IMG/VR virus record: IMGVR_UViG_3300022562_001814
Span: 1-64,000 of that record
Strand: one strand, 5' to 3'
Source of the DNA: a virus
Length of the DNA stretch: 64,000 nucleotides
Shown piece after piece: positions 3,218 through 25,966 of the stretch; position 1 is the stretch's first letter, and each line of letters opens with the position of its first letter. The position numbers and the translations under genes were made by a program. The notes beneath the pieces were generated by a model that saw only the letters and a list, made by a program, of their open reading frames with translations, did no database searches and was not told the origin of the DNA.

Positions 3218-3634
3218 ATGCATATGAAAAAAGATTTTGAAAAAAATCGAGATCAAATCATTCAAGAGTTTCTGAAGGGAGGTGAACCAATAATAGAAAC
3301 CATTAAAAATCATTTAGATGATAGTTATTTAGATGATTTTACGCCATTAGAAGTTAAAGTCCATGGCTCTAACTTTGATAGAGCGTTTAAAACGTTTAGA
3401 GCAATAGTTCAAAAAGAAAAAATATTATCATTATATAAACAAAAACAGACATATGAAAAACCGTCTGTTAAACGTAGACGTAAAAGAAATGAAATGCGTC
3501 AAAAAAGATTAGAATTAGAATCTAAACATAGAAAAATTCTTTCAGGAGAATTTGAAAAAGAATTGAAGAAAAAACAAAAGTTAAAAGAACTTAAAAAACA
3601 ATTGAAAGAAACTCGTAGAAATGATTTAGGTTGA
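3218..3634 (+). CDS. rpsU: Ribosomal protein bS21-like protein
   Basis: Residues about 46-100 read like the small-subunit protein bS21: FDRAFKTFRAIVQKEKIL, then YEKPSVKRRRKRNEMRQKR. These match the family pattern FDxALRRFKR...G(V/I)L...R...YEKPxxxRKRxxxxxxKR in order and spacing. bS21 binds the 30S platform next to the anti-Shine-Dalgarno end of 16S rRNA and aids initiation. This copy is longer (138 versus about 70 residues). It has a 45-residue N-terminal extension and a very basic, probably helical C-terminal tail. Either ATG 3218 or ATG 3224 could be used. Phage-encoded bS21 is known from other large phages; a role in favouring phage mRNA is inference. Confidence 0.82.
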   Translation: MHMKKDFEKNRDQIIQEFLKGGEPIIETIKNHLDDSYLDDFTPLEVKVHGSNFDRAFKTFRAIVQKEKILSLYKQKQTYEKPSVKRRRKRNEMRQKRLELESKHRKILSGEFEKELKKKQKLKELKKQLKETRRNDLG

Positions 3635-3635
3635 A

Positions 3636-4031
3636 ATGAAAACAGAGCCCCAAGATAGTGCTGTGATTAAAAATCCTAATAGAAATAATTCACAAATCCC
3701 CGAGCCTTATATTCCTGAACATGTAAGGCTCGGGAGGGCTCCAATTATACAGGATTTTTCATCTTTAGATGGGGATATAATTGGAGAAGAAACTACATCG
3801 TTACCAACTAAACCAACTGAAAATGTTTCCTATACACCTAAGGTTGGTGAATTTATTCTAATGGTGTTAGGGAAAGTTATTTCTCATGGAAATGAGCAAC
3901 AGATTTTATCTGAAGCCAAGTCTATCTTATATAAAGAAAATCCTAATTTTATTAATTCTAATATATCAATAGATGATATAGTAATTCTTAAAAGAATAGG
4001 ATTGAAGGTAGGGATTTTTTTTAATGAATGA
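3636..4031 (+). CDS. Hypothetical protein
   Basis: No family recognised. The first ~65 residues are polar and proline-rich, probably disordered (PEPYIPEHVRLGRAP is a readable short patch). Residues about 65-125 form a compact predicted helical part (EFILMVLGKVISHG...EQQILSEAKSILYKE). It starts 1 bp after the bS21-like gene and overlaps the next gene by 8 bp, so it is almost certainly co-translated with both. Confidence 0.72.
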   Translation: MKTEPQDSAVIKNPNRNNSQIPEPYIPEHVRLGRAPIIQDFSSLDGDIIGEETTSLPTKPTENVSYTPKVGEFILMVLGKVISHGNEQQILSEAKSILYKENPNFINSNISIDDIVILKRIGLKVGIFFNE

Positions 4032-4611
4032 AATAAAAGAAAAAGAATCTAGGAACGCAAGTGATATTCTTCTTTCTTTAGAAGAAAAGGTTTTGGCATT
4101 AACTCAATTAATAGTTGTTAATGATATGAATAATAAATTAATTCTAGATCGTTTAAATAAATTATTAAATAATACTTCTAGCTCTTTACCAAAAGAGCAA
4201 ACAAAAATTTCGAATAAAATTATTTCAAACAATCCAATTGTTGAAGTAAATAAAAATCCAGTTTCTACTAGAAAACAAACTGTTACTGAACCGGTAGGTA
4301 AAAAAGTAAAAGAAAAATCATCCATCAAAGAAATAAAAATACCTGTAGTTCAACGTATAACAGATGGTAAAGGTAATGATTTATATTTAGCCGATGTTGT
4401 AATTACTAATGCTATTAATAAAGAACTGATGGTTAAATTAAAAACCAACGCTACAGGCAAATGGCAAACCCAATTGCCACCGGGTTCTTATAATATACAT
4501 ATATCTAAACTTATCGATGCAGAGTCCATGAATAAAATAGAATCATTACAAGTTATTGAAGTTGAATCTAAAATGAAGTCTTTACAGCTTCCTGTAGCTA
4601 TTATTAGATAA
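4024..4611 (+). CDS. Hypothetical protein with C-terminal carboxypeptidase-regulatory-like beta domain
   Basis: The N-terminal ~50 residues look like a coiled coil (EEKVLALTQLIVVNDMNNKL). A Ser/Lys/Thr-rich linker follows to about residue 105. The C-terminal ~85 residues resemble the CarboxypepD_reg / transthyretin-like fold: a 'DGKGNDLYLADVVITN' strand pair, then TNATGKWQTQLPPGSYNIHI, which fits the family rule 'T...G.f...l.pG.Y.i.i'. Such domains in phages often decorate structural proteins, but nothing here proves a virion role. The start overlaps the previous gene by 8 bp. Confidence 0.72.
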   Translation: MNEIKEKESRNASDILLSLEEKVLALTQLIVVNDMNNKLILDRLNKLLNNTSSSLPKEQTKISNKIISNNPIVEVNKNPVSTRKQTVTEPVGKKVKEKSSIKEIKIPVVQRITDGKGNDLYLADVVITNAINKELMVKLKTNATGKWQTQLPPGSYNIHISKLIDAESMNKIESLQVIEVESKMKSLQLPVAIIR

Positions 4612-4621
4612 TAGGTAAAAT

Positions 4622-4948
4622 ATGACTGATGGTTATTTTTCTAGATCTGAAAAGTTCAAAACTTGTTCTGAAAATCAAAATAAACTTAATTTAAGATTAA
4701 AAGAAATTGCTAATGAAATAGCAATATTACCGAAATTACCTCAATCGATGGAAGATTGGATAGATTCTTGGACAGATCCTTCTAAAAAAGGATTTAGTAT
4801 GTCCGCATTTAATAAACATTTGAAGATTAAAAAAGAATATTCAAAATTAATAGATAGTTCTAATTCTAATTTACGAGAAATGAAAATTTTAGTAATAGAA
4901 GAATTATTAGAAAAAATAAATAATACACTCAACAACGGCAGTGATTAA
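4622..4948 (+). CDS. Hypothetical protein
   Basis: A 108-residue, mostly helical, charged protein with no recognised domain. It contains a tryptophan-centred segment (MEDWIDSWTDPSKKGFSMS) between two helical stretches. It lies 10 bp after the previous gene, and its 3' end overlaps the HNH gene by 8 bp, consistent with translational coupling. Confidence 0.7.
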   Translation: MTDGYFSRSEKFKTCSENQNKLNLRLKEIANEIAILPKLPQSMEDWIDSWTDPSKKGFSMSAFNKHLKIKKEYSKLIDSSNSNLREMKILVIEELLEKINNTLNNGSD

Positions 4949-5444
4949 AACTTTATTACTAAATTATAATTATCAAATAATTGCTTTCATTGATGAGAAG
5001 CGAGCTATCAGGCTTTTATTTAAAAATAAAGCAGAAGTTATTTCTAATTGGATCGGTAGAAAAATTAATTCAATTAATGGATTTATAGAACATCCTGCAA
5101 CACTTAAAATGAAATATTTGGTTAATCTCAGACCAACCAAATTAACATTCTCTAGAAAATTAGTTTTAAGAAGAGATGAATATACATGCTGTTATTGTAA
5201 TAAAAAATACAAATATAATAATTTAACTATTGATCATATTATACCCAAAAGCTGTGGAGGAGAAAATTCTTTTATTAATTGCGTTACAGCGTGTATTCCC
5301 TGTAATATGAAAAAAAGAAATAGAACTCCAGAACAAGCTGGAATGGTTCTTAAAATCAAACCAAAAATACCGGATAAATTTTTATGTTATTTTCCAGGTG
5401 ACGCCGAATGGCATGATGATTGGTTATTCTTCATCTCCAATTAA
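4941..5444 (+). CDS. HNH endonuclease
   Basis: This is a classic bacterial/phage HNH nuclease of the RRDxxxCxYC type. KLVLRRDEYTCCYCNKKY is followed by LTIDHIIPKSCGGENSF (the DH of the HNH core), then NCVTACIPCNMKKRNRTPEQAGM (C-x2-C and N). The two CxxC pairs bind zinc, and the His of DH is catalytic in the family. The start is GTG at 4941, overlapping the upstream stop. It is probably a free-standing mobile endonuclease, but a role in genome processing cannot be excluded. Confidence 0.87.
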   Translation: MIKTLLLNYNYQIIAFIDEKRAIRLLFKNKAEVISNWIGRKINSINGFIEHPATLKMKYLVNLRPTKLTFSRKLVLRRDEYTCCYCNKKYKYNNLTIDHIIPKSCGGENSFINCVTACIPCNMKKRNRTPEQAGMVLKIKPKIPDKFLCYFPGDAEWHDDWLFFISN

Positions 5445-5591
5445 ATCTATAACAATTTTGTGTATTTCTTTTTCTTCTTTCTCTTCTTCAATATTGACAT
5501 ATAATTTATCAATATTTAAATATATTTGTTCGTCAGCTAAATTGTTTTGTTCTTTGTGTTTTTCATAAAGAAAATCCCAAAAATTAGACAT
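5424..5591 (-). CDS. Small acidic protein on the opposite strand
   Basis: A 55-residue leftward gene starting at the ATG whose first base is 5591 (MSNFWDFLYEKHKEQ...). It is preceded on its own strand by GGTGATAA, a good Shine-Dalgarno match. The C-terminal third is very acidic (NIEEEKEEKEIHK). It fills the only gap between the HNH gene and the zinc-ribbon gene and overlaps the HNH 3' end tail to tail by 21 bp. Function unknown. A longer version starting at 5606 is possible but lacks the ribosome site. Confidence 0.55.
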   Translation of the reverse strand: MSNFWDFLYEKHKEQNNLADEQIYLNIDKLYVNIEEEKEEKEIHKIVIDLIGDEE

Positions 5592-5628
5592 ATTTATCAC
5601 CAACAATATATCATATTATGAGTACAAA

Positions 5629-5835
5629 ATGCTATGTTTAACTTGTTCTAAATTATCAGTATTATCTAGTAAAAGAATTTGCTTACGATGTAAAGGTGGG
5701 ATATATAATAATATGTCTGTTGTATGTGATAATTGTTCAAATAAAGAACAATTATGTTCTATTTGTTTAAAAAAAATATTTAATTCAAATAATAGAATAA
5801 GACCAAAATCAAATTGTAGTAGTTGTGGTAAATAA
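5629..5835 (+). CDS. Small cysteine-rich (zinc-ribbon-like) protein
   Basis: Sixty-eight residues with five CxxC pairs (CLTC, CLRC, CDNC, CSIC, CSSC), enough for two or more zinc sites of a ribbon or RING-like kind. There is no other recognisable signature. Its TAA stop shares one base with the ATG of the deformylase gene, so the two are translationally coupled and may act together. Confidence 0.72.
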   Translation: MLCLTCSKLSVLSSKRICLRCKGGIYNNMSVVCDNCSNKEQLCSICLKKIFNSNNRIRPKSNCSSCGK

Positions 5836-6365
5836 TGATTATAAATGATGAAAATATTTTAAGATCTTCAAATAAAGATGTGGAGCCTGAAGAAGCTGAA
5901 GCTCTTATTAAGACCTTGGAAAAAGAATTAAATTATTCTTTTTTGATGGGTAGACCTGGTATTGGATTGGCTTGTCCACAAATCGGAATAAACAAAAAAG
6001 CAGCCATAGTAAGAATTAATACAAATGGAGTTTATGATTTATCTGTAAATTTGATTAATGCTAAAATTGAAAAAGGATATAATCCTTTTATTTTTAAAAA
6101 CGAAGGATGTTTATCATTTCCCGATCAATTAAATGATACGACTAGATATCAAGAAATACATGTTATTAATAATGCTGTTAAGCCACATGCATTTATTGCA
6201 ACAGGATTATTTGCTGTAGCTATTCAGCATGAATTAGATCATTTAAATGGTATATTGTTTTTTGATAGGATTGTTAAAAAAAATGTAGCCTCTAAAATGA
6301 GACCAAATGATTTATGTATTTGTGGATCAGGTATTAAATATAAACGTTGTTGTAAATTAAAGTGA
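5835..6365 (+). CDS. def: Peptide deformylase with C-terminal SEC-C zinc motif
   Basis: Removes the N-terminal formyl group from nascent proteins. All three signature motifs are present: GIGLACPQIG (motif 1), EGCLSFP with metal-ligand Cys92 (motif 2), and QHELDH with His132, Glu133 and His136 (motif 3). The C-terminal ~25 residues form a SEC-C motif (LCICGSGIKYKRCC), the zinc module best known from the end of SecA and from some ribosome-associated proteins. Phage deformylases are known and are usually minimal; a SEC-C tail on one is unusual and may help docking to the ribosome or SecB/SecY machinery (inference). It starts on the last base of the upstream zinc-ribbon gene. Confidence 0.95.
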   Translation: MIINDENILRSSNKDVEPEEAEALIKTLEKELNYSFLMGRPGIGLACPQIGINKKAAIVRINTNGVYDLSVNLINAKIEKGYNPFIFKNEGCLSFPDQLNDTTRYQEIHVINNAVKPHAFIATGLFAVAIQHELDHLNGILFFDRIVKKNVASKMRPNDLCICGSGIKYKRCCKLK

Positions 6366-6372
6366 GAAAAAT

Positions 6373-6564
6373 ATGGAAAATCCAAAAGAAATGTTATTAA
6401 TAGAAACTGTCGTTAAAATGGCTGCTATTCAAAAAATTATGATTAGAAAAGGTTTGTGCACTGAAGATGAAATTTATAATGAAATGACTACAATATCTAA
6501 AGAATTAGTAGAGCAGCTCAGAGCAACTATCCCGGAAATTTTCACTCCCAACGCTCAAAATTAG
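6373..6564 (+). CDS. Small hypothetical protein
   Basis: Sixty-three residues, predicted helical (TVVKMAAIQKIMIRKGLCTE...ISKELVEQLRATIPEIF). No family recognised. It lies 7 bp after the deformylase gene and is probably in the same transcript. Confidence 0.62.
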   Translation: MENPKEMLLIETVVKMAAIQKIMIRKGLCTEDEIYNEMTTISKELVEQLRATIPEIFTPNAQN

Positions 6565-6592
6565 TGATATATAAGCTGTATAGGAGAATCGT

Positions 6593-6847
6593 ATGACAAA
6601 AGAAAAACAAACAACATCTCAGCAATCAGTCTCTAAAACAATTTGGGCAGAGATTAAAGACAAAGATATTGATGTATTTGCAATGGTATCTAAAGTATCT
6701 GATTATTGTGAATATATAGATATTGATGAAAAAAAATGCTATTTAGTATGTAAAGCTACCGCTGTTCTTCCTGCTTTAGAGATGGCTTTAGGCAGTAATT
6801 ATAAATGTAATTCATCTGATAAATATATTGTTATAGAAAAGGTATAA
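6593..6847 (+). CDS. Small hypothetical protein
   Basis: Eighty-four residues with a good ribosome site (TAGGAGAATCGT before the ATG). A short Ser/Gln-rich head precedes a compact alpha/beta-looking region (DIDVFAMVSKVSDYCEYIDI...CYLVCKATAVLPALEMALG). No family recognised. It ends 1 bp before the next gene. Confidence 0.65.
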   Translation: MTKEKQTTSQQSVSKTIWAEIKDKDIDVFAMVSKVSDYCEYIDIDEKKCYLVCKATAVLPALEMALGSNYKCNSSDKYIVIEKV

Positions 6848-6848
6848 T

Positions 6849-7295
6849 ATGCCATTTGATGACGACGATGATACTGAAATTAAAGGACCTGTAAGGAAAA
6901 TAAGTCTTAAAAAAGTTAACCCACCACAACCAGAACGTCCAAGTACAAAAGAAATATTTGAACAACAGGCAGAACAAAAATTTTCTCAAATTGAAGATTA
7001 TAAACAAAAAATATGGGATTTATCTATTAAATATAAATCTTTTATAGAAAGTAAAATACTTCCTGAAAACCGTGGTCCAATTACTTCTAATCTAGAAAAA
7101 GAAGTTTTAGATAAATTGGTTCAATTATCACTTGATATGAATGAAGATGAAACCCAAGAACAGGGTGTCGGTAGTACAGCATTATGCATGCTGCTTATGA
7201 AATGTATGTTAATTCAACGCGATATTATAAATTCTCTAAATTTTAAATTAGAACAAATAGAACAAAAAATTAAAACTAATGACAAAAATATCTAA
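6849..7295 (+). CDS. Hypothetical protein
   Basis: A 148-residue protein with an acidic N-terminus (MPFDDDDDTEIKG), a proline-containing linker and a mostly helical body (QKIWDLSIKYKSFIESKILPE; LCMLLMKCMLIQRDIINSLN). No recognised domain. It is packed directly behind the previous gene. Confidence 0.65.
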   Translation: MPFDDDDDTEIKGPVRKISLKKVNPPQPERPSTKEIFEQQAEQKFSQIEDYKQKIWDLSIKYKSFIESKILPENRGPITSNLEKEVLDKLVQLSLDMNEDETQEQGVGSTALCMLLMKCMLIQRDIINSLNFKLEQIEQKIKTNDKNI

Positions 7296-7449
7296 AGATC
7301 TTATATTGAATATGATCACAGAAGAAAAAAATTTTTATTCTTCTTATTTGTCGTTATGTAGTTACTATAAGGTGGAACCCGATCCAATTGCAACAACCAA
7401 ATGTTCATCAAAACTGGAAATACTAGAACATATTCTGAAGTTGATGTAG
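7279..7449 (+). CDS. Possible small overlapping gene
   Basis: A 56-codon ATG-to-TAG frame (MTKISKDLILNMITEEKNFY...) that bridges the end of the previous gene (17-bp overlap) and the start of the primase zinc-domain gene (49-bp overlap). Without it, about 100 bp would be left uncovered in an otherwise gapless array. The sequence has normal phage-like composition (for example EIL-EHIL-KLM at its end). There is no recognised family and no strong ribosome site. Confidence 0.4.
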   Translation: MTKISKDLILNMITEEKNFYSSYLSLCSYYKVEPDPIATTKCSSKLEILEHILKLM

Positions 7450-7961
7450 TTCAACAAACAATAAATAAAGCCAATAGTGTAAATTTATTGGATATTTTTA
7501 ATATTTATGATATAAATATTAATATTTATAGTAGAAAAATAAATTGTCCTTTTCCGTTTCATAAAAACGGGCAAGAAAAATCAGCATCATTTTATCATTA
7601 TAATGATAATAATAGTTTCTATTGTTTTGGTTGTAAAACAGGTGGTAAGCCGGTTGATTTTATATCTATGTATGAAGGTATTAGCAGATATAGTGCTGCC
7701 TTAGCTATTATAAATAATTTTGATACTTATGAAATAGAAAATGTTGAAAATAATATTGTAAATTATTCTAAAATTTATTTAGAATTTTCACATCTGATTA
7801 GATCGTTTATTATTAAAAATAAAGATAATGAAAAAGCTATTATATATGCTGAATATATATGTTCGGCTTTTGATAGTGTTAGATCTAAATATGTGTTAGA
7901 TCCAAATGGGTTAAATATAATATTTAGTAAACTTAAAAGAAAATTAGAAGAATTTAAATAA
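7401..7961 (+). CDS. DnaG-type primase zinc-binding (CHC2) domain protein
   Basis: Residues about 20-100 match the zinc-binding head of DnaG-family primases. An N-terminal 'VDVVQQTINKANSVNLLDIF' helix is followed by CPFPFHKNGQEKSASF, then FYCFGCKTGGKPVDFI (C..H..CxxC ligands). In DnaG this head selects the template start site and is joined to the TOPRIM core. Here the protein stops after 186 residues with only helical sequence behind the zinc domain. The catalytic core lies separately at 26275-27036. The start is the ATG at 7401; an upstream in-frame stop at 7368 rules out a longer form. It is probably a trans-acting subunit of a split primase. Confidence 0.82.
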   Translation: MFIKTGNTRTYSEVDVVQQTINKANSVNLLDIFNIYDININIYSRKINCPFPFHKNGQEKSASFYHYNDNNSFYCFGCKTGGKPVDFISMYEGISRYSAALAIINNFDTYEIENVENNIVNYSKIYLEFSHLIRSFIIKNKDNEKAIIYAEYICSAFDSVRSKYVLDPNGLNIIFSKLKRKLEEFK

Positions 7962-14189: not shown

Positions 14190-15452
14190 ATGTTAATTGA
14201 AGTTAAAGAAATAGAATATTGTAGATTAAACGTTAAATTTGAAGGTGACGAAGAAAACGTTAAAAATAAAGAATATGAAATGTTACAACATTTTAAACAA
14301 GGTAAAGTCCCAGGTTTTAGAGAAGGTAAGGCGACAACAGAAGCTGTTAAATTTCATTTTAAAAATCAGATCAACGAAGCTGTTAAAAATGAATTAGCTT
14401 ATCAAGCCTTTCAAACGGTTATAGCTGAAAAAAATATTAAACCATTTGGACAGCCACAATTTCTCGCTATTAATTTAGATGGTTCTAAATTTAAATGTGA
14501 ATTTTGTGTTAATCAGGTTCCTAATATTGAATTATCTCAATATAAAAATTTTGAATTACCAAAGGGGACTACGCCCAATTCGATAGAAATGTCGGAAAAA
14601 ATATTACAAGAATTAAGAGTTAGAAATGGTGAAACACTACCTTTCTCCGATGAAGACTTTATTCAATTAGGTGATACGGCAATTATTAATTATATAGGTT
14701 ACTTGCCTGGCGAAGAAGTGCCAACAATTAAAAAAGATGGAGAAATTTTTGTAGTTGGAAAAGCTCATGCAGATGCTTTTAATGATAACATATTGGGTAT
14801 GAAATTAGGTGAATCTAGAGAATTTACTACAATTCTTTCTTTGGATTCGGCCGCTCAGCATATTGCTGGAAAAGAAGTACGTTTTGTAATTGAATTAGCT
14901 ATGGCATCAAAATCTGAGCCCGCGCCTTTAGATGATGAATTGGCAACCAAAGTTGGATGTAAAAATCTCGAAGAGCTAAATAATATAGTTCAAGGCATGT
15001 CTTCTAATAGAGTTAAAGAATTAGAGACCAAATATTTATCTGATCAAGTTGCCGCTAGACTATTAGAAAGTCATAATTTTGAATTACCATCTTGGTTAAC
15101 AAGTTTTGAAGCTAAATTATTTGCAAAACAACAAGGTCATGCGTGGGAATCTTTATCTGATGAACACAAGAGTAATTTTCTTAAAATGGCAGAACAAAAT
15201 GTTAAATTATCTATTATTTTAGATAAAGTGCGGGAAATAGAACCCGATGCACAATTAACAGATGAAGAAGTATTTTCTATTATTAAACAGAGCATATCAA
15301 AATATAAAACAATGCTTAACATGGCAGATAAATCAGATGAAGAGGTATTAAGTAAAATAGCTGAATCAGGATATACGAATGCTTTAATTTCTCAAGTTAG
15401 AGATGATGCAACTATGGATTTTATAATTAAAAATTCTTCTATCTTAGAATAA
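14190..15452 (+). CDS. tig: Trigger factor-like ribosome-associated chaperone
   Basis: The whole trigger factor architecture is visible. The ribosome-binding domain carries the signature loop VPGFREGKA at residues 40-48 (E. coli GFRxGKxP at about the same position), which docks on uL23 at the exit tunnel. A FKBP-like domain follows (about residues 150-240: LGDTAIINYIGYLPGEEVP, ILGMKLGESREF, VRFVIELAMA). The long helical C-terminal arms follow (APLDDELATKVG-x-N-LEEL is a family hallmark). Length 420 against 432 in E. coli. It binds nascent chains, so a phage copy would protect or select phage proteins. Trigger factor is rare in phages as far as I know. Confidence 0.92.
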   Translation: MLIEVKEIEYCRLNVKFEGDEENVKNKEYEMLQHFKQGKVPGFREGKATTEAVKFHFKNQINEAVKNELAYQAFQTVIAEKNIKPFGQPQFLAINLDGSKFKCEFCVNQVPNIELSQYKNFELPKGTTPNSIEMSEKILQELRVRNGETLPFSDEDFIQLGDTAIINYIGYLPGEEVPTIKKDGEIFVVGKAHADAFNDNILGMKLGESREFTTILSLDSAAQHIAGKEVRFVIELAMASKSEPAPLDDELATKVGCKNLEELNNIVQGMSSNRVKELETKYLSDQVAARLLESHNFELPSWLTSFEAKLFAKQQGHAWESLSDEHKSNFLKMAEQNVKLSIILDKVREIEPDAQLTDEEVFSIIKQSISKYKTMLNMADKSDEEVLSKIAESGYTNALISQVRDDATMDFIIKNSSILE

Positions 15453-15464: not shown

Positions 15465-15755
15465 ATGAAAGACAAACATTTCCCAGAAAAATATAAAAAG
15501 AAATTAGATAATTTTGCTCAAGGGTATATGGATAATGTAGATTCTTCTGACACGGAAGAGATTAAAAAATTAATTTTATCTTCTGAAAGAAATTTATATG
15601 AAATTGAATACGAAAAAGATAATAATCCAAAAATTTTGAAAATGAAAGAGGATCTTAAGGCAGAAATGTCTCCATTTACAGAGGCAAAACACACCGAAAC
15701 GGCTAAAATTAAATATTGTCTTTTCACGTTAGAGGGTCGTGGAGTTCGTATTTGA
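15465..15755 (+). CDS. Hypothetical protein
   Basis: A 96-residue, strongly charged helical protein (EIKKLILSSERNLYEIEYEK; KMKEDLKAEMSPF). A good AGG ribosome site precedes the ATG. No family is assigned. Such small charged proteins often sit beside recombination genes in T4-like phages, but that is context only. The stop overlaps the TTG start of the next gene. Confidence 0.7.
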   Translation: MKDKHFPEKYKKKLDNFAQGYMDNVDSSDTEEIKKLILSSERNLYEIEYEKDNNPKILKMKEDLKAEMSPFTEAKHTETAKIKYCLFTLEGRGVRI

Positions 15756-16036
15756 TTAAAATAAGTAAAAAAGAATTACAGGCTTGTTGTGGTAAAAAAC
15801 AAATAATTTGGAAATTAAATATTCCAATCAAAAAAGATTACTTGTCTATACTACAACAGGCTGGATTTCATTATGTAAAAACATATTTTGATGCCGGAAT
15901 GATGTATATTGAAGATAAAAATTTAATAGCTACTGGAATTTTTGGTTTAAATGAAATTACTGTTAAATGTAAAACTAAAGAATGTACAGATAGTGCAACT
16001 AAATTGGAACAAATAATTTTAACCAAATTTAATTAA
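15752..16036 (+). CDS. Hypothetical protein, TTG start
   Basis: The frame opens further upstream, but TTG at 15752 is the better start: GGAG sits 7 bases ahead, and the TTGA overlaps the upstream TGA stop. The product is then 94 residues (MIKISKKELQACCGKKQ...). It looks like a small alpha/beta protein (KKDYLSILQQAGFHYVKTYF; LIATGIFGLNEITVKCK). No family recognised. It shares one base with the M41 protease gene downstream. Confidence 0.68.
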   Translation: MIKISKKELQACCGKKQIIWKLNIPIKKDYLSILQQAGFHYVKTYFDAGMMYIEDKNLIATGIFGLNEITVKCKTKECTDSATKLEQIILTKFN

Positions 16037-16680
16037 TGAATGTTGTTAAAAAACAAGCTCATGATTATGAATTAATTGCTATGAGTTGGCATGAAGCTGC
16101 TCATACAATTTGTGGTTTATACAATTTCACTAAAATTTATAATGTTCATGTTATGTCAGATAAACACACAAATGGCAATACATTATATGAAATATGTGAT
16201 CCAGATAATATTGAAAATAAATTATTAGCTAAAATATTATTAATATTTGAAGTACAAACATTATATGCCGGATTAGTGGGTGAAAAACTTTATTATAAAG
16301 AAATATGTGGTTCTGATAATTTTCCTATGCATCTTCGTATCGGTTCATCTAACGATATTCAAGATGCTGCTAGAATTATTCATAAATATAATTTAGCAAA
16401 TCCTGGTAAAGCTAGGTTTTTGTTTAAAAAACAAGTCCAAAATGATACTAAAAATATTTTAACAGAATATTGGGACGATATTAGATTAGTGGCGCACGTC
16501 CTTTATAAAAATAAAGAATTAGAATATGATGAATTAAAATATTTCTTAACAAGAAAATCTATTAATAAAGAATTTTGGAGAGATAGATTTAAATATATAA
16601 AGCTTATTTATGGAGGTAATGAATTAGATGAAAAATATTTAAAAGATATAATTTTACAAAATTCCGTTATTATTATGTAA
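16036..16680 (+). CDS. Stand-alone M41 (FtsH-type) zinc metalloprotease domain
   Basis: Residues 16-30 carry the FtsH-like zinc motif MSWHEAAHTICGLYN (His19, Glu20, His23). About 80 residues later GLVGEKLYYKE and GSSNDIQDAARIIHKYN match the FtsH segment 'GGRxAEE...GAsnDixxAT', whose Asp (Asp107 here) is the third zinc ligand. There is no AAA+ ATPase domain and no membrane segment, so it is only the ~210-residue peptidase part. It could act on already unfolded chains or borrow a host ATPase. It lies between the trigger factor and polymerase genes, overlapping its neighbour by one base. Confidence 0.8.
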   Translation: MNVVKKQAHDYELIAMSWHEAAHTICGLYNFTKIYNVHVMSDKHTNGNTLYEICDPDNIENKLLAKILLIFEVQTLYAGLVGEKLYYKEICGSDNFPMHLRIGSSNDIQDAARIIHKYNLANPGKARFLFKKQVQNDTKNILTEYWDDIRLVAHVLYKNKELEYDELKYFLTRKSINKEFWRDRFKYIKLIYGGNELDEKYLKDIILQNSVIIM

Positions 16681-16689: not shown

Positions 16690-16743
16690 TTTTAACAAAT
16701 GGAATATATAAACCATAGAACTACTTGTTAGGCTTTGTTAAAA
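16690..16743. repeat. Inverted repeat upstream of dnaE
   Basis: TTTTAACAAA at 16690-16699 is repeated as its exact reverse complement at 16734-16743, 34 bp apart, in the 85-bp gap before the DNA polymerase gene. This is one of the larger gaps in the replication region, so the arms could be operator half-sites or part of a promoter region. In AT-rich DNA a chance 10-bp match is also possible. Confidence 0.4.
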
Positions 16744-16765: not shown

Positions 16766-19700
16766 ATGAGTTTTGTTAGTTTACACAATCATTCTTATTA
16801 TTCTATTCTTGATGCTTTGCCATCACCTAAAGAACTTTTTCGTAGGGCTAAAGAATTAAATCAACCCGCCCTTGCTTTAACAGATCATGGTTCGTTCGCC
16901 GGCGCTTGGGATGCATATAAGGCATCAAAAGAAACTGGTGTTAAATTAATTATTGGATCTGAATTTTATTTTTTATCTGATGCTTCTAAAAAAGATGAAA
17001 AAGTTAGACACATAATTTTATTAGCTAAAAATAATTCTGGTTATAGAAATTTATTATCTTTAAATAGATCAGGATTTGACAATCCTATTATTACTGGTAG
17101 GAAAGTTATTCCAATTATTGATTGGAATCTATTATCTAAATATTCTGATGGGGTTATTTGCCTAACGGCTTGTGGTAATGGTATAATTGGACAGCATATC
17201 AATGCAAAAAATTTTGCTGCGGCAGAAAATGATATCAAACATCTTATAGATATTTTTGGAACCGATAATTTGGGTATAGAGGTTCAACCACACGCTTTAA
17301 GTAGGCAGGCAACGCTTTATCACAATGGTATTAATCAGGTTTTTACTAATTTTCATTTAATAAAATTAGCAGAAAAATTTAATCTTAAAGTAGTACCAAC
17401 AACAAATACTCATTATCTTAAAAAAGAACATGCTCCCATGCATGATGTATTATTAGCAATTGGTGCTATGCAACCAATTTATTCTAATGCAAGATTAAAA
17501 TATCCGGTACATGAATTTTATCTTAAATCATATGAAGAAGTAAAAGCATTTTTTGCTAGAAATTTTGGCGATTCCTTTGCCGAAGAAATTTGTAAAAACT
17601 CATTATATTTTGCTGACAAATGCGAAGAGCCAGATTGGATTGATCCTAAATTTTCTAATCCATATGGAAAAGAATTGCCAGTTTTTGCTGTTAAAGAAAC
17701 AAGTGATTATGATAAATTTCAAGATTGGTTAGTCAAACAGTCGGATAAAATACAAAAATTGTCGGAAGATTCGGCTTATCTAAGATTTAAATGTTATGAG
17801 GCTTTTGATCTTAAATTTAAGAATAAATTATCGCTTATAAAGCACAAAGAATATATTGAAAGAATAGAAGAAGAGCTATCTGTTTTAGATTATCAGGGAT
17901 TTAGCTCATATATGTTAATTGTTGCAGATTATATTAATTGGGCAAGAAAAAATAATATTGGAATAGGTCCTGGTAGAGGGAGCGTTGGGGGCTGTTTTAT
18001 TGCATATTTGCTAGGAATTCATAAAGCAGATTCCATACGATATGGACTTATTTTTCCAAGATTTCAAAATAGAGAACGTTCCAGCCCACCAGATATCGAT
18101 CAAGATATAGCAGCTTCAGATAGAGAAAAGGTCATATCATATATTCAACAAAAATATGGACAAGATAAAGTAGCTTTCGTTTCTAATTTTAGTCGTATTA
18201 CTCCCAAAGTTTACGCAAGAGATATTGCAAGATCTTTAGAATTTGGCGGGAACAGAAAAGAAGCTGTTAATATTGGGAATTCAATTGCTGATTCAATTTC
18301 TAAAGAATCTAAAAATTCAATAGATTTTAATGATCTTAAATTAAGTCCTTTATTTATGGAATATGTAAAAAGATATCCTAATCTTGCTTCTAATTCTGAA
18401 ATTTTAGGTAAAATTAGAAATTTTTCTACTCATGCAGCCGCACTCGTTATTTCTAATAGACCTCTTATAGGGTTAGTTCCGGTTAGAAAAGATAAAGATG
18501 GGCATCAAGCTTTAGAATATGAAAAATATAATACAGAAGAAAATGGTCTTCTTAAAATAGATGTTTTGGGATTATCAACTTTGGATTTGATAGAACAAAC
18601 TATTTTACTTATTAATAAAAACAAAAAGAATAAACCAATATCTTTAGAAGATATTGATTTTGAAGATTATGATAAAAAAACATATGATCTTATTTCTAAA
18701 GGAGATACTTACGGGGTATTTCAATTAGGAACAAGTGCCGGTACTATTGATTTATGTAAAAAAATAAAACCTAAAAATATAGAAGATTTGGCAATTATTA
18801 CAACTTTGGCCCGCCCCGCCGCCAAAAATATTATAGATGATTTTATTAAAACACGAGAAGGTAAGCGTGAATTTAAATTATTACATCCTTCATTAAGAAA
18901 TGCTTTTGAAAAAACATATGGGTTTGGTTTGTTTGATGAATCAATTTTACAACTAGGTAAAGATGTAGCTGGTTGGTCTCTTAATGAATCTGATCGTATT
19001 AGAAAAATGATTAAGGAAAAAGGTAAAGATCCAAATAAAGCCAAAAAACTAAGAGAAGAATTTATTGATGGTGCAATCAAAAATGGTATTGGTCGAACCA
19101 TGGCATCTAAAATTTGGGATGAAGAAATTAATAAATTCCAAGGGTATACATTTAATAAATCACATGCCGTACTATATTCTTTTATTTCATATATTACGGC
19201 TTATTTAAAGGCCCATTATCCTGTAGAATTTTTACTAGCTAATTTAATAGCTGAAAATAATTCTAATACCCCAGATGCAGAGGAAAATATAGATAAAGCT
19301 AAAATGGAATTACGTAGATATGGAGTTAATATACTTCCTCCAGATATTAATAAATCTGAAATGGAATATCAATTATTGAATAATAATACGTTATTGACCG
19401 GATTAGATGCTTTAAAATATGTAGGACATGATGCTATTCAAGACATTATTAATAAAAGACCGTTTACTAGTTTTGATGATTTTATGTTAAGAGTAGATAC
19501 AAGAAAAGTAAGATCTTCAGCAATTCAGGCGTTAGCTGCAAGCGGGTGCTTAGATATTTTTAATATTACAAGAAGATCTATTTATTTATATTGTTCTGAT
19601 TATCGTAAAAAATTACAAGTTTGGCTCAAAAAACATGATCCTAAAACTGAAAAATTTAATTTTCCTTGGCCAAATGAATCTGAATGGTCTAAATCAGAAT

Positions 19701-20284
19701 TATTTGCTTTAGAAAAACATTATTTAGGAGAAGCTTTTATTTGTCCTAAAAAAGAAGCATTCGGAACCTTCTTTTTTACAAAAACACATGCTAATATTTC
19801 AACAATTAAATTAAGTAAAAATAGAACATTTTTACCATCAATTAAAGCTGAAATTAAAACAATTTTTGAATTAAAAATAAAAAAGGAAAATAGTAGGTTA
19901 ATAGGCCAGGAAATGGCTAAAGTTGGTATAGAAGACGAATTTGGAATTCAATGTAATTTAACTATATTTCCCGATCGTTGGCAAGAAGTTAAAAAAAGAA
20001 TGAAAATTAATGGTAAAGGGAAAGCGTATTTTGAACCTGGATGTGTTATTCATTTTGCCGGAACTTGTAATTTATATGAAAATGAAATGGGTGTTATTTT
20101 AGAAACATTATTAGAAAGTATGCCTCCTCCAGCGCTTCCACGTGATTTAAAAGCTAGAAAAGTTGCTATTAAAGATTCTGTAACTATCTCGGAAAATTCT
20201 GATTTAATTACCGAGTTAGAAGATCAGTTATTTACAGAAGGTCTTATAGATTTGGATGAAGATCCGTTTTCTTTGGATATATAA
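16766..20284 (+). CDS. dnaE: DNA polymerase III alpha subunit (C-family DnaE)
   Basis: Replicative polymerase of bacterial C-family type. The PHP domain is at the N-terminus (VSLHNHSYYSILD; LALTDHGSFAGAWDA; IGSEFYF; TTNTHYL). The palm has GIGPGRGSVGGCFIAYLLGI, the catalytic pair D443/D445 in PPDIDQDI, and the third Asp D599 in LKIDVLGLSTLD. FSTHAAALVIS and FNKSHAVLYSFISY are further DnaE hallmarks. A helix-hairpin-helix and an OB-like part (VGIEDEFGIQCNLTIFPDRW) follow. At 1172 residues it is full length. It sits alone behind an 85-bp gap with a GAGAGG ribosome site, and the neighbouring ssb, recA and primase genes belong to the same replication set. Confidence 0.96.
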   Translation: MSFVSLHNHSYYSILDALPSPKELFRRAKELNQPALALTDHGSFAGAWDAYKASKETGVKLIIGSEFYFLSDASKKDEKVRHIILLAKNNSGYRNLLSLNRSGFDNPIITGRKVIPIIDWNLLSKYSDGVICLTACGNGIIGQHINAKNFAAAENDIKHLIDIFGTDNLGIEVQPHALSRQATLYHNGINQVFTNFHLIKLAEKFNLKVVPTTNTHYLKKEHAPMHDVLLAIGAMQPIYSNARLKYPVHEFYLKSYEEVKAFFARNFGDSFAEEICKNSLYFADKCEEPDWIDPKFSNPYGKELPVFAVKETSDYDKFQDWLVKQSDKIQKLSEDSAYLRFKCYEAFDLKFKNKLSLIKHKEYIERIEEELSVLDYQGFSSYMLIVADYINWARKNNIGIGPGRGSVGGCFIAYLLGIHKADSIRYGLIFPRFQNRERSSPPDIDQDIAASDREKVISYIQQKYGQDKVAFVSNFSRITPKVYARDIARSLEFGGNRKEAVNIGNSIADSISKESKNSIDFNDLKLSPLFMEYVKRYPNLASNSEILGKIRNFSTHAAALVISNRPLIGLVPVRKDKDGHQALEYEKYNTEENGLLKIDVLGLSTLDLIEQTILLINKNKKNKPISLEDIDFEDYDKKTYDLISKGDTYGVFQLGTSAGTIDLCKKIKPKNIEDLAIITTLARPAAKNIIDDFIKTREGKREFKLLHPSLRNAFEKTYGFGLFDESILQLGKDVAGWSLNESDRIRKMIKEKGKDPNKAKKLREEFIDGAIKNGIGRTMASKIWDEEINKFQGYTFNKSHAVLYSFISYITAYLKAHYPVEFLLANLIAENNSNTPDAEENIDKAKMELRRYGVNILPPDINKSEMEYQLLNNNTLLTGLDALKYVGHDAIQDIINKRPFTSFDDFMLRVDTRKVRSSAIQALAASGCLDIFNITRRSIYLYCSDYRKKLQVWLKKHDPKTEKFNFPWPNESEWSKSELFALEKHYLGEAFICPKKEAFGTFFFTKTHANISTIKLSKNRTFLPSIKAEIKTIFELKIKKENSRLIGQEMAKVGIEDEFGIQCNLTIFPDRWQEVKKRMKINGKGKAYFEPGCVIHFAGTCNLYENEMGVILETLLESMPPPALPRDLKARKVAIKDSVTISENSDLITELEDQLFTEGLIDLDEDPFSLDI

Positions 20285-21355: not shown

Positions 21356-21359
21356 TTTA

Positions 21360-21779
21360 ATGAATCAGGAAGAATTAGAAAAATTATTAAATACCTGTTT
21401 AAATGAATTGACTGTAGTTCACCAAGGAGAATGTTCTACTGAGCGCGCCGAAAGAAACGCCGCTTTATTTTTGGAGGCTCAATTTAGATTGTCAGAATAT
21501 TTATCTGGCACCGAACTTCAAGCCAAACGTGTTAAATATGAGATAGAAAGAGTTGCTTCTCAAAAATATTTTGAATATAAAAGTGGAGCACTCGGTAATG
21601 AAAAAAAATTAACCGAAGCCGCCTTAGAACATGCAATATCTAAAGATGATGAAATATTTAAAATGAAAGAAGATATGATTCTAAAAGAATCGGAATATAA
21701 AAAATGGAATTATATAATGAATATTTTGTCCAATGGACATATAATGTATCGTGGCATGTCTCGTAGAGATAATATATGA
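21360..21779 (+). CDS. Hypothetical protein
   Basis: A 139-residue helical, charged protein (AERNAALFLEAQFRLSEYLS; TEAALEHAISKDDEIFKMKE). No recognised domain. Spacing from the previous gene is 4 bp. Its TGA stop overlaps the ATG of a decayed HNH-like gene (ATGA). Confidence 0.7.
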   Translation: MNQEELEKLLNTCLNELTVVHQGECSTERAERNAALFLEAQFRLSEYLSGTELQAKRVKYEIERVASQKYFEYKSGALGNEKKLTEAALEHAISKDDEIFKMKEDMILKESEYKKWNYIMNILSNGHIMYRGMSRRDNI

Positions 21780-21980
21780 ATAAAAAATGTTCTAAATGTA
21801 AAATCATTAAAAATTTCAATGATTTTACTCCATATCAATGCTTCTATGGAAGATGAAAATTTCAAAAAATGTTGGTCATTAGATAATTTAAGACCTTTAA
21901 ATTCTAAACAAAATATATTAGATGGTTCTAATCGAATTAGATATAGTAAAAAAAAGATAAAAGGAAAATTATGGTTGTAA
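21776..21980 (+). pseudogene. Remnant of an HNH-like homing endonuclease
   Basis: The 26-codon frame from ATG 21776 reads MNKKCSKCKIIKNFNDF, the usual zinc-knuckle head of small phage HNH enzymes, and stops at 21854. A second frame in another phase (21846-21980) reads MEDENFKKCWSLDNLRPLNS then KQNILDGS, the usual tail of the same enzymes ('cwslxNLrPLxxxxNxxKg'). The middle, including the HNH catalytic His-Asn part, is missing. This looks like an internally deleted and frame-shifted endonuclease squeezed in just before recA. Confidence 0.68.
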
Positions 21981-22975
21981 AAGAAAAAGTATCTACAAAT
22001 ACAGAAAATAAAAACAATTTAATTGCCGGACTAGATATTGAGAAGTTAGTACAAAAAGCTAAAGAGAGTTATTCTAAAAAAGATAAAGGACTTGCAAAGC
22101 AATTATCAACTGGTGCCACCATCCTAAGACCATCAGATGATAAAGATTTCGTTGTATGGACTAAAGGCGATCATTGGAAAGCCTTAACCAATCTTAAAGG
22201 ATTACCGTTTGGACGTATAGTTCAAATATCTGGAAAACCCGATAGTGGCAAATCCACTCATGCCATGGCATTTATGAAATTTGCTCAAGATCAAGATGTG
22301 CTCGTTATTTTATGGGATAGTGAAAGAAAATTTGGTAGAAAACGTTTTGATGAAAAAATGGATGGTAATTCAGATAAATTGCTAGTTGTTGATACTAACA
22401 AAATTATTGATGGTGCAAGAGCAGTTGCACAATTTGTGCATGCCGCTAAAGAAATGAATCCAGATGTCAAAATTTTGATCGTTTGGGATAGTGTTGGCGC
22501 TTCTTTAAATTCTACAGAAGATAGAGAAGATGATGAAGAATTTTCACAGCAGCCAGGGGTTTCGGCAAAAGAGAATTCATATGCAATCAAAAAATTTAAC
22601 AAATTAGCTAATAAATATAGAGACAAAGAAACTGGCGAAGAAAGTATTGCTACTTTAGTAATTAATCAAACATATGCTTCAATTGGTATGGGTGCCCCAG
22701 CTCAAATTGAAAAAGGCGGCTCCGAAATTTATTATTTATCTAGCGTTATAGTTCAATTATCACGTAAAAAAGATTTGAATAGAGTTCGTGGTGGTGATAA
22801 ATATAAATATGGTATTGTTTCACGTGCCAAAGTTAAGAAAAATCATTTATTCGAAGGAGATGAATGTATTAGCGAATTGGATTTGGTAATTTCAGCCGAT
22901 GGTGTTCATCTCGCTAATGATGTCAAAAACTTTGATGATATTAAAGGTTGGGATGATGAAGAGGGAGACGAATAA
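21971..22975 (+). CDS. recA: RecA/UvsX-family recombinase
   Basis: Strand-exchange ATPase. Walker A is SGKPDSGKSTHAMAF (from Gly88). It is followed by VLVILWDSERKFG, and Walker B is ILIVWDSVGAS, then LVINQTYASIGMGAPAQIEKGG (the loop 2 area) and a SRKK...VKKNH basic part. At 334 residues it lies between RecA (about 350) and T4 UvsX (390). The sequence is divergent from host RecA and closer in style to phage recombinases. Together with SbcCD, the Cas4-like nuclease, SSB and the RuvC-like enzyme it gives a near-complete recombination set. The next gene starts on the last base of its stop. Confidence 0.92.
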   Translation: MVVKEKVSTNTENKNNLIAGLDIEKLVQKAKESYSKKDKGLAKQLSTGATILRPSDDKDFVVWTKGDHWKALTNLKGLPFGRIVQISGKPDSGKSTHAMAFMKFAQDQDVLVILWDSERKFGRKRFDEKMDGNSDKLLVVDTNKIIDGARAVAQFVHAAKEMNPDVKILIVWDSVGASLNSTEDREDDEEFSQQPGVSAKENSYAIKKFNKLANKYRDKETGEESIATLVINQTYASIGMGAPAQIEKGGSEIYYLSSVIVQLSRKKDLNRVRGGDKYKYGIVSRAKVKKNHLFEGDECISELDLVISADGVHLANDVKNFDDIKGWDDEEGDE

Positions 22976-23274
22976 TGCCTATAATTGATATTACACCCAC
23001 AAGCTCACGCATACATGAACGTCCGGTTAAAATAACTCCAATTTATTTAATAACAGAAGTATTATCAAGCGGTACACGCTGGTTGGCCGTTAAATTAGAT
23101 GAGTCTAACAATGTTATCAAGTTTGTTGGGGTAGAGCTAAAAAAAAGTGAAAAACGTGTAGAAGAAAATTATCAAGAAATTTTAAATTCTGCGGACAAGA
23201 CGTTATATAAGGAAGTGTGGTTGCCTTGGCACCAAATTAATTCAATACAAAATCTTATTTTTAAACAAAAATAG
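22975..23274 (+). CDS. Hypothetical protein
   Basis: A 99-residue, one-domain alpha/beta protein (VKITPIYLITEVLSSGTRWL; WLPWHQINSIQNLIF). No family recognised. It is coupled by a one-base overlap to the recA-like gene, so it could be a recombination accessory factor; that is context only. Confidence 0.7.
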   Translation: MPIIDITPTSSRIHERPVKITPIYLITEVLSSGTRWLAVKLDESNNVIKFVGVELKKSEKRVEENYQEILNSADKTLYKEVWLPWHQINSIQNLIFKQK

Positions 23275-23292
23275 TAATTAAGGAGAAATAAA

Positions 23293-23577
23293 ATGAAAAA
23301 AGTATTAACAAATCCAGAAGTAGTACAAACAGTTCGTACCCGTGTTCTTTCGCTTCTTCAACGCCGTAAAGGTCGTTGGCAAGGCACAATGACAGATTTG
23401 CTTGTTGCAATTAGTGGGCGACAAGTACCTGCAATTTGGCCAGGATCTGCATCTGCTTTACGCAGAGTTGTAAATAAAGTTGTTCCAGCAATTCGTCGTG
23501 AAGGATATAAAGTTCAATTCACACGTACACCAGATCATGATCGTAGACGTGTAGTTAGTTTTACTCGTGTCCGTTAA
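23293..23577 (+). CDS. Small basic winged-helix-like DNA-binding protein, probably abundant
   Basis: A 94-residue, arginine-rich protein. The pattern GRWQGTMTDLLVAI...WPGSASALRRVVNKVVPAIRREGY-x-VQF resembles the winged-helix tail found on some phage/plasmid primases and replication proteins ('gxWxGtatELLxaL...wPxsxxxLsrrLxrxxpxLrxxGi'). Here it is a free-standing gene. It has a strong AAGGAG ribosome site. Its C-rich codons (CGT for Arg, CTT, GTT, ACC) are unlike those of its neighbours and shared with the capsid gene. This suggests high expression. It lies between recA and ssb, so replication or nucleoid binding is likely. Confidence 0.72.
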   Translation: MKKVLTNPEVVQTVRTRVLSLLQRRKGRWQGTMTDLLVAISGRQVPAIWPGSASALRRVVNKVVPAIRREGYKVQFTRTPDHDRRRVVSFTRVR

Positions 23578-23654
23578 TTAGTAATAATAATCCATTAAAT
23601 AAGATCGAATAAATATCTTTTATGATTAAATGATCGGAAAAATAAGGAAAATAA

Positions 23655-24341
23655 ATGACAACATTAAAACATGGAGAAATGGCTTGGAATGATGAATCTA
23701 TTGGTACTGATGACCGTAAAGGAAAAAGTAAAGATCGTTATCTTAAATTAAAGCCAGGCTCAAATCTAATTAGAGTATTAACATTACCACATCAATATTT
23801 TCAACACAAATACACTTTTGATGGTGAAAAGGGTTATGGACATCGCATAGATTGTTCAGCCAAACACGGGTTTTGTCCGGTCTGTGCCAAAGGTAACAAA
23901 CCTAAAAAACGATGGTTGTTGGGCGTTATTGATAGATCAACAAATTCATATAAAATTTTAGATGTAGGTTGGTCTATTTTAAGTGATATTCATACTTATG
24001 CAAGTGATGATGATTGGGGCGATCCTATACAATATGATTTTGATATTGTAGTTAATCCTAATGGTGGTCCAATAGGTTATTATAAAGCTGTTGCAAAGCC
24101 TAAAAGACCTCTTTCTGCACAAGATTTAGTGCTAAAAGAGCAAGTTAATCTTGAATACTTGGAAAGTAGGTGTTCACCTCCTGAACCAGGACAAGTTGAA
24201 GAACGATTGAATTCTTTAATGGAAGATTTTCTTAAAGGCGGTAGTTCTGGACAAGTTGAAAAACCGGTTACTTTTTCTTCTAATAGTGAAGATAGTGATT
24301 TTCCAGATAGTGATGCAAAAGCAATTAATTCTCCTTTCTAA
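23655..24341 (+). CDS. ssb: Single-stranded DNA-binding protein (T4 gp32-like)
   Basis: Residues about 25-110 follow the phage gp32-type layout: YLKLKPGSNLIRVLTLPH, then a zinc-like cluster CSAKHGFCPVCAKG, then WLLGVIDRSTNSYKILDVG (OB strands). The C-terminus is acidic and ends in SPF, like the DIPF tip of SSBs that recruits partner proteins. Good SD (TAAGGAAAATAA). The gene is followed directly by a strong terminator, so it ends the transcript that includes recA. Confidence 0.88.
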   Translation: MTTLKHGEMAWNDESIGTDDRKGKSKDRYLKLKPGSNLIRVLTLPHQYFQHKYTFDGEKGYGHRIDCSAKHGFCPVCAKGNKPKKRWLLGVIDRSTNSYKILDVGWSILSDIHTYASDDDWGDPIQYDFDIVVNPNGGPIGYYKAVAKPKRPLSAQDLVLKEQVNLEYLESRCSPPEPGQVEERLNSLMEDFLKGGSSGQVEKPVTFSSNSEDSDFPDSDAKAINSPF

Positions 24342-24358
24342 GAATAATTATTGATTGT

Positions 24359-24393
24359 AAAAGGAGAGATGGAATTCCATCTCTCCTTTTTTT
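24359..24393 (+). terminator. Rho-independent terminator after ssb
   Basis: A perfect stem (AAAGGAGAGATGG / CCATCTCTCCTTT) with an AATT loop is followed by a run of T. It lies 17 bp after the ssb stop. Confidence 0.93.
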
Positions 24394-24419
24394 ATATCTT
24401 TTGATATATAAAAGATATA
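24393..24419. promoter_or_regulatory. 10-bp inverted repeat touching the ruvC-like start codon
   Basis: TATATCTTTT (24393-24402) and AAAAGATATA (24410-24419) are exact reverse complements with a 7-bp loop. The right arm ends on the base before the ATG at 24420. No Shine-Dalgarno is present in this gap, so the structure may control initiation or serve as an operator. Chance in AT-rich DNA is possible. Confidence 0.45.
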
Positions 24420-24986
24420 ATGAAAATAATGTCTTTTGATGTTTCTAGCTCGACAATAGGCTGGGCGGTATTTAATATTAAAAATAATAAAATAAATCTT
24501 TTTGATTCTGGGTTTTTTAAACCTATCAAAAAAAATAATATTTTTGAAAATCTTTCTTATGTGAGAGAGCAGATAAAAAATTTATTAGATGAATATAATC
24601 CAGATGAAATAGCTATTGAAGAGATTGCAAGATTTATGCCAAAATTAAGTTCTGCTAATACTATTATCGTGTTAGCATTGTATAATAGAATGGTCGGTTT
24701 AACAGTTTTTGATCATTTAAAAAAAATTCCTTATTTATATAATGTTATGACGATTCGACATAGTATTAAATTATCTAAAGAATTACCCAAAAAAGAAGAA
24801 ATTCCTGAACTTGTAGAAACGATTTTAAATATTACTTTACCAAGAAAATACACCAAAAATGGAATCATCAAATCCGAATTATATGATGAAGCTGATGCGA
24901 TTGCGTGTGGGCTTTGTCACTGGGTGAAAACTAATAATTTACCTTTAATTAAAATAACATCAAGTAAAGTCAGGAAGAAAAAATGA
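24420..24986 (+). CDS. ruvC: RuvC-like Holliday junction resolvase / RNase H-fold nuclease
   Basis: RNase H-fold resolvase. Asp7 lies in MSFDVSSSTIGWAVF (first catalytic Asp with the RuvC 'D-x-S-x-x-x-G-W/Y' pattern). The second motif is EIAIEEIARF (Glu). The end motif is YDEADAIACGL (family DxxDAxA), giving the fourth acidic residue. At 188 residues it matches RuvC (about 170). In the cell it would resolve branched DNA before packaging. It directly follows the ssb terminator, and its stop overlaps the dnaJ start by 4 bp. Confidence 0.87.
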   Translation: MKIMSFDVSSSTIGWAVFNIKNNKINLFDSGFFKPIKKNNIFENLSYVREQIKNLLDEYNPDEIAIEEIARFMPKLSSANTIIVLALYNRMVGLTVFDHLKKIPYLYNVMTIRHSIKLSKELPKKEEIPELVETILNITLPRKYTKNGIIKSELYDEADAIACGLCHWVKTNNLPLIKITSSKVRKKK

Positions 24987-25966
24987 AAATTCAAGAAGCT
25001 TATAAGGTATTAGAAAGCTCATCAGATATTTCAGATGAAGATTTAAAAATTAAATATAAAGATATGGCAAAGAAATATCATCCTGATATTTATAAAAAGG
25101 AACCAGATAAATTTAAAAAAATTAATGAAGCTTATCAATTTATTTTAGATTATAGAAAAAATCCTGAAAAATATGAACCTAATATGAAAAATGGATTTTG
25201 GGGTAGGGTTCCTGATATAGCTAATGATTTTTTTATTAATTTTGGTTTTGAAAATGAGTGGTCTAAACCAAAAGAAATTAAACCAATATTTGTTTCTATC
25301 AATTTAAATTTTAAAGAATCGGTTTTAGGATGCAGCAAAGAAATTAATTATACTAGAAATATTAAATGTAAAGACTGTCAGGGAGCTGGTATTAAACGTA
25401 AGGGTAATGGTTGTGAAACGTGTGACGGGTTTGGTAGATCAACTATTAACAATAAAGGAATGATTTTTCAAACAAAATGTTCAAAATGTCAAGGTAAAAA
25501 TGTCACGCAAAATACTTGTGATAAATGTAAAGGCAAATGTGTAATTAATGAAAATAAACAAGGAAATATTCACGTTCCAGCCGGCATTAAAAATGAAGAA
25601 ATATTAAGAGTTAATGGTGCTGGAAACTTTGTGGGAAGAACTTTTTTTGCTGATGAATATACAGATTTACATATCAAGGTACATGTTAAGTCATACAAGG
25701 ATATGTATATAGAAAATAATAATGTTATTTCAAAATTAAATATTTCATTATTGGAGGCTTTAGAGGGCAAAGAACAAGAAATAGAAACTATTTATGGTAA
25801 TAAGAATGTTACTATTCCACCTAAAACTAAACATTTAGATCAAATTAAAATTCCTAAATGTGGTGTTAATAATACTAACGGAATGCATGTAATTAAATTA
25901 TTTATCGAATATCCTCAAGATGTAACAGATATAATTGGAGTACTTAAAAATGATGTTCATAATTAA
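24983..25966 (+). CDS. dnaJ: DnaJ (Hsp40) co-chaperone
   Basis: The J-domain occupies residues 1-55 with HPD at 33-35 (MAKKYHPDIYKK), the DnaK-stimulating motif. A glycine/aromatic linker follows, then four CxxC zinc repeats (CKDCQGAG, CETCDGFG, CSKCQGK, CDKCKGK; family CxxCxGxG). C-terminal substrate-binding beta domains complete the protein (VPAGIKNEEILRVNGAGN; LNISLLEALEGKEQEI). At 327 residues it is shorter than E. coli DnaJ (376), mostly in the G/F region. No DnaK gene is seen, so it presumably recruits host DnaK to phage proteins or replication complexes. Confidence 0.93.
   Translation: MKIQEAYKVLESSSDISDEDLKIKYKDMAKKYHPDIYKKEPDKFKKINEAYQFILDYRKNPEKYEPNMKNGFWGRVPDIANDFFINFGFENEWSKPKEIKPIFVSINLNFKESVLGCSKEINYTRNIKCKDCQGAGIKRKGNGCETCDGFGRSTINNKGMIFQTKCSKCQGKNVTQNTCDKCKGKCVINENKQGNIHVPAGIKNEEILRVNGAGNFVGRTFFADEYTDLHIKVHVKSYKDMYIENNNVISKLNISLLEALEGKEQEIETIYGNKNVTIPPKTKHLDQIKIPKCGVNNTNGMHVIKLFIEYPQDVTDIIGVLKNDVHN

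Follow-up and report, generated by a model that had tools for sequence, protein, structure and literature searches.

The DNA analysed here (the window) is 64,000 bases long and represents bases 1–64000 of a 200,737-base virus record, IMG/VR IMGVR_UViG_3300022562_001814. The record contains terminase, portal, capsid and tail genes and comes from an uncultivated jumbo-phage lineage. Five genes of the window belong to families that act in translation and on newly made protein chains. Their open reading frames start where a first-pass annotation, made from the letters alone, had placed them, and all lie on the + strand (lengths in amino acids, aa):

3218..3634, + strand: bS21 homologue, 138 aa (PF01165 1.4e-14; TIGR00030 over cut-off)
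5835..6365, + strand: peptide deformylase with a C-terminal SEC-C motif, 176 aa (PF01327 4.8e-30; PF02810 8.6e-8)
14190..15452, + strand: trigger factor (TF), 420 aa, three-domain fold (TIGR00115 3.1e-56)
16036..16680, + strand: stand-alone M41 (FtsH-type) zinc peptidase domain without AAA, 214 aa (PF01434 5.5e-5)
24983..25966, + strand: DnaJ, zinc-finger type, 327 aa (DnaJ_C 5e-24; J domain 8e-11)

This set is real and conserved, and it is larger than the first-pass annotation saw; the word module, which that annotation used for it, overstates the case. The proposed identities hold, by profile searches for bS21, deformylase-SEC-C, TF and DnaJ, and by structure and zinc site for M41.

TF matches the Pfam models Trigger_N (2.1e-18) and Trigger_C (7.8e-6), each above its cut-off, and scores 191 bits with TIGR00115 'tig' (cut-off 180.2). 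An AlphaFold2 model based on 38 relatives has a predicted local distance difference test score (pLDDT) of 86.7, and Foldseek aligned it to the ribosome-bound E. coli TF (2vrh) with a template modelling score (TM) of 0.71 over 434 columns. The ribosome-docking signature is found as GFREGK at residues 42–47, and its strict form (GF/Y-R-x-G-K/R/H) is present in 64 of 75 TFs. The phage protein shares the full three-domain fold, the docking signature and a score above the NCBIfam equivalog cut-off with bacterial trigger factor (tig), but it is only about 15–20% identical to solved TFs, is phage-encoded and adjoins DnaE. Action at the ribosomal exit port follows from the family, and docking there is predicted from the signature.

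The M41 domain falls below the Pfam cut-off in the window (PF01434, 23.5 bits versus 29.9), while four relatives pass it. The AlphaFold2 model of the protein (six relatives, pLDDT 87.9) has the protease domains of AFG3L2, FtsH and YME1 as its best PDB matches in Foldseek (E about 1e-4), and because of this match of the modelled structure we regard the identity as secured despite the low Pfam score. The zinc-site residues H19, E20, H23 and D107 are invariant across 35 sequences, and HExxH is found in 63 of 63. The protease-domain fold, HExxH and the downstream Asp are all shared with the FtsH, m-AAA and i-AAA proteases (family M41). Unlike these, the phage protein, at 214 aa, lacks both a transmembrane part and an AAA ATPase, and it scores 15.7 bits with the FtsH model TIGR01241 (cut-off 600), as only the peptidase part is present.

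The core of the bS21 homologue spans residues 45–97, with extensions on both the N- and the C-terminal side, and scores 46.9 bits with TIGR00030 (cut-off 28.95). A location at the 30S platform follows from the family. Phage-encoded bS21, often extended as here, is known from other phages (Al-Shayeb et al. 2020, PMC7162821; Chen et al. 2022, PMC9723584), where its gene is placed with the virion genes and on the other strand. In the present lineage it instead belongs to the replication block and is encoded on the strand of that block, together with TF, deformylase-SEC-C and M41. In the window a LAGLIDADG-type endonuclease gene (2112–3071) is inserted between the topoisomerase and bS21 genes, which are adjacent in the close relatives L014 and L015.

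The deformylase scores 106.5 bits with TIGR00079 (cut-off 103.95) and has intact motifs (GIGLACPQ, EGCLS and HELDH for GxGxAxxQ, EGCxS and HExxH), and the catalytic residues are kept across the lineage. Like TF, deformylase acts at the ribosomal exit port, as follows from its family. It shares its domain and active-site motifs with the peptide deformylases of cyanophages and vibriophages but differs from them by the added SEC-C motif at residues 158–173 (PF02810, a CxC...C[CH] metal site; 32.4 bits, cut-off 20.4). Binding to 70S ribosomes is known for the isolated metal-binding domain of SecA, itself a SEC-C motif (PMC6620043), and by this analogy the tail is probably a ribosome tether or nascent-chain contact for the enzyme. 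The open-access literature contained no paper naming SEC-C together with deformylase, and absence there is weak evidence. A deformylase-like protein with a SEC-C tail and diverged deformylase motifs I and II is also encoded by the unrelated huge phage LR745206 (39325–39717).

DnaJ has an intact HPD and four CxxCxG repeats, and its J domain and DnaJ_C both exceed their Pfam cut-offs; it stays below the DnaJ_bact equivalog cut-off (TIGR02349, 189.8 versus 377.2). HPD is kept in all full N-termini inspected among the relatives. The gene overlaps the 3' end of RuvC by 4 bases, and SSB and primase are nearby. Phage-encoded DnaJ is also seen in huge phages that encode DnaJ and DnaK (Lak phages, LR7565xx genomes). 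Hsp70, found in 5 of 17 unrelated jumbo phages used as controls, is missing from all 28 records of the lineage sample described below, and the phage DnaJ therefore presumably works with the Hsp70 of the host.

Three further genes on the + strand complete the TF–M41 region:

15465..15755, + strand: small conserved protein between TF and M41, in 75/75 TF loci
15716..16036, + strand: small cysteine-bearing conserved protein between TF and M41, in 75/75 TF loci
16766..20284, + strand: DNA polymerase III alpha (DnaE), the anchor neighbour of TF and M41 (tblastn to phage DNA polymerase III alpha)

The first small protein has no confident match in Pfam or PHROG, and the stop codon of the second small gene overlaps the M41 start. 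In all 75 TF loci TF is followed by the two small genes and then by DnaE, with M41 in between in 63. In the M41–DnaE intergenic region, CCATAGAACTACTTGTTAGG (16713–16732) lies inside a 24-base stretch that is identical in the relative G003 (L020, L032). The non-coding DNA around it differs between the window and G003, and CCATAGAACTACTTGTTAGG is present as a single copy in the window, where none is expected by chance; going by the sequence it is possibly a regulatory site.

Alignment-query scans of IMG/VR gave 71 loci with TF and 37 loci with M41, on contigs of the lineage that reach 480 kb; a single-sequence query with TF had found no viral relatives. Identity between proteins of the window and those of the closest relatives is 54–79%, falling to about 30% for the most distant. 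The common gene order is topoisomerase, bS21, ..., deformylase, ..., SbcD, SbcC, nucleotide kinase, ..., PD-(D/E)XK nuclease, TF, followed by the two small genes, M41, DnaE, ..., RecA, SSB, RuvC, DnaJ and primase. This order is kept even where the sequences have diverged deeply (TF identity as low as 29%), with RecA, DnaE and others likewise in place. Since dozens of contigs obtained from further metagenomes show these genes in the same order, the presence of the five genes is more than chance. An assembly chimera was set aside, as the same block is found in independent contigs. TerL and DnaE are only 24–33% identical to those of named phages, and the lineage therefore seems, on this sequence comparison, to be without a cultured member in the collection searched. 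Scanning bacterial and archaeal genomes for the M41 family turned up distant matches only (22–32% identity) and did not yield a phage contig with a host.

Co-occurrence was counted in 28 lineage records of at least 112 kb, the record of the window included, and in the 17 control phages. Some lineage records are near-duplicates (e.g., G010/G011, G028/G029 and G032/G033). Selection of the records rested on TF (7) or M41 (20), so the counts for these two are partly circular, while those for bS21 and DnaJ are free of this, as is that for deformylase except in two records. Deformylase, bS21, DnaJ_C and Trigger_N were each found by profile search in 28 of 28 records. M41 was found in 25 of 28 by sequence comparison, with the Pfam profile alone detecting 17. 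Twelve more TF-bearing records of at least 100 kb all encode a bS21 homologue too, which is thus present in 40 of 40 TF-bearing records of this size. Among the controls bS21 and DnaJ_C were each found in 7 of 17 and deformylase in 5, while profile searches found TF and M41 in none. The five families thus belong together in this lineage, in support of the first-pass annotation, and in the genomes counted the set as such is confined to it.

The list of five genes was incomplete, since two ClpP genes and an AAA ATPase gene near bS21 are also present in most relatives. The AAA ATPase (about 440 aa) directly adjoins bS21 in 34 of 41 bS21 loci (e.g., L174 and L175) and is missing from the window and from G015–G017, G010, G011 and G049; among NCBIfam models it comes nearest to those of proteasome-activating nucleotidases, CDC48 and FtsH, each far under cut-off. 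ClpP genes, mostly as tandem pairs, are present in 24 of 28 lineage records, about 4–10 kb upstream of bS21 (e.g., in G005, G007, G014 and G032), and are missing from G000 and G015–G017. As the record of the window begins just before topoisomerase, a ClpP pair could lie beyond the end of the record.

Several parts of this set have been described before. Phage bS21, deformylase, DnaJ and ClpP are already known, and genomes of bS21-encoding phages also carry chaperones, Clp protease and other protein-production genes (PMC7162821; PMC9723584). Neither paper mentions TF. It was among the targets of a Southern Ocean virus survey, which reported none (PMC8407431). No TF fold was found among the viral protein structures of BFVD by structure search at E ≤ 0.001. 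With TF also absent by profile from the 17 control phages, a phage trigger factor appears to be undescribed so far; its absence from the open-access papers is weak evidence. A few unrecognised phage TFs are, judging from a profile match, already in the databases, because PHROG 26774 (no assigned function) matches the window TF at 1.2e-25. By tblastn against 50,697 phage records, bS21 and M41 gave no match, and a few TF matches (about 20–27% identity) were not counted as they lay on unannotated or bacterial-looking contigs.

Elsewhere in the window, the sigma-factor-like (27080–28006) and portal (39028–41946) proteins seem to contain inteins, and TerL of the relatives L010–L013 is interrupted by about 1 kb. 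The protein at 55459–56175 has a long (GQA) repeat run in its C-terminal half, and that at 57735–59021 has similar low-complexity TQP repeats. No tRNA, tmRNA or Rfam family was found within the 64 kb.

The reading that we favour, with a probability of roughly one in two, is that this jumbo-phage lineage keeps a fixed host-derived set of genes for translation and for new chains within its early/replication block. The bS21 homologue would join the 30S platform of the host and bias initiation toward phage mRNA. TF would dock at the exit port of the bS21-bearing ribosomes through its GFRxGK signature and shield phage chains, while the deformylase would strip the formyl group, with the SEC-C tail as a probable ribosome or nascent-chain contact. 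DnaJ would pass clients to host Hsp70, as the phage has none. The M41 domain would be an active zinc peptidase, which may cut peptides without ATP or may borrow or disturb host FtsH. From family membership and motifs we infer incorporation into ribosomes, the role of the tail and the substrates, and joint action of the five on nascent chains is plausible.

Several observations weigh against this reading. The five genes lie dispersed across 23 kb, with replication genes between them, amid about 30 genes that belong to a conserved replication/recombination block (topoisomerase, SbcCD, PD-(D/E)XK nuclease, DnaE, RecA, SSB, RuvC and primase), and it is this spread, in one lineage only, that speaks against a discrete module. 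The carriers represent one lineage and one syntenic block, so that their co-occurrence amounts to one event of inheritance and is no proof of joint function. In addition, bS21, deformylase and DnaJ occur together without TF or M41 in 3 of the 17 controls (LR745206, LR756511 and LR756508), and the phage M41 protein is without the ATPase that feeds FtsH.

The genes could accordingly be inherited bystanders, acquired separately for their own reasons and kept by a stable core block, with no joint pathway. Because the five genes are spread through the conserved block, its shared inheritance does explain most of the co-occurrence, and the neighbours SbcCD, RecA, DnaE, SSB and RuvC are conserved to an equal degree. 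Related functions also vary independently, with the ClpP pair and the AAA gene missing both in the subclade of the window and in some M41-less members. In the TF tree (68 rows) the presence of M41 changes state once, the 11 rows without it forming one clade (support 99), and the SEC-C tail, retained by most of the lineage, is lost in part of this clade; a joint gain of SEC-C and M41 was set aside, since L266 belongs to the M41-less clade and retains the tail. Yet it would be a lot for unrelated cargo that all members that look complete carry genes for initiation, deformylation, folding at the exit port and delivery to Hsp70, and TF and M41 were not found in the other jumbo phages tested. We therefore hold the bystander explanation to be possible but on the unlikely side.

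A second alternative concerns M41 only, which might be an interfering subunit that mixes with or blocks host FtsH and so spares phage proteins instead of degrading chains. Phage lambda CIII inhibits FtsH, and the protease-domain fold of the phage protein stands alone without AAA. The AAA gene beside bS21 was considered as its obligate partner ('split FtsH'), and this was dropped: four M41-less members carry the ATPase and four M41-bearing members, the window included, do not, and no aromatic pore loop was seen by eye. The fully conserved zinc site favours catalysis over mere blocking, and we regard interference as a tentative and rather unlikely explanation. As the protein is without an ATPase, unfolding of failed chains by it is doubtful from its sequence; the earlier suggestion that it degrades such chains is purely conjectural, and peptide cleavage or an interplay with host FtsH would fit better.

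The fixed-set reading also has a stronger form, in which host ribosomes are specialised from start codon to folding: bS21 would mark them at initiation, TF and the SEC-C-tethered deformylase would hold the exit port, DnaJ would hand chains to the Hsp70 of the host and M41 would clear failures. We consider this form unlikely. Finally, the chaperones might serve replication and virion assembly, with DnaJ and TF remodelling replication or capsid complexes, like host DnaJ/DnaK in lambda. TF can fold proteins off the ribosome as well, and it lies near the PD-(D/E)XK nuclease and DnaE genes, while DnaJ, with RuvC, SSB and primase as neighbours, is just as well placed for a role in replication. Although lambda replication requires DnaJ/DnaK (as cited in PMC9038755), this alternative is improbable, as TF retains its ribosome-docking signature and bS21 and deformylase have no known off-ribosome role.

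Ribosomal proteins, tRNAs, factors and single chaperones are known phage cargo, but a phage TF appears to be new. With TF, deformylase, bS21 and DnaJ present throughout one lineage, virus-specialised ribosomes become a directly testable question, and the two new parts, the SEC-C-tailed deformylase and the AAA-free FtsH peptidase domain, can each be assayed alone.

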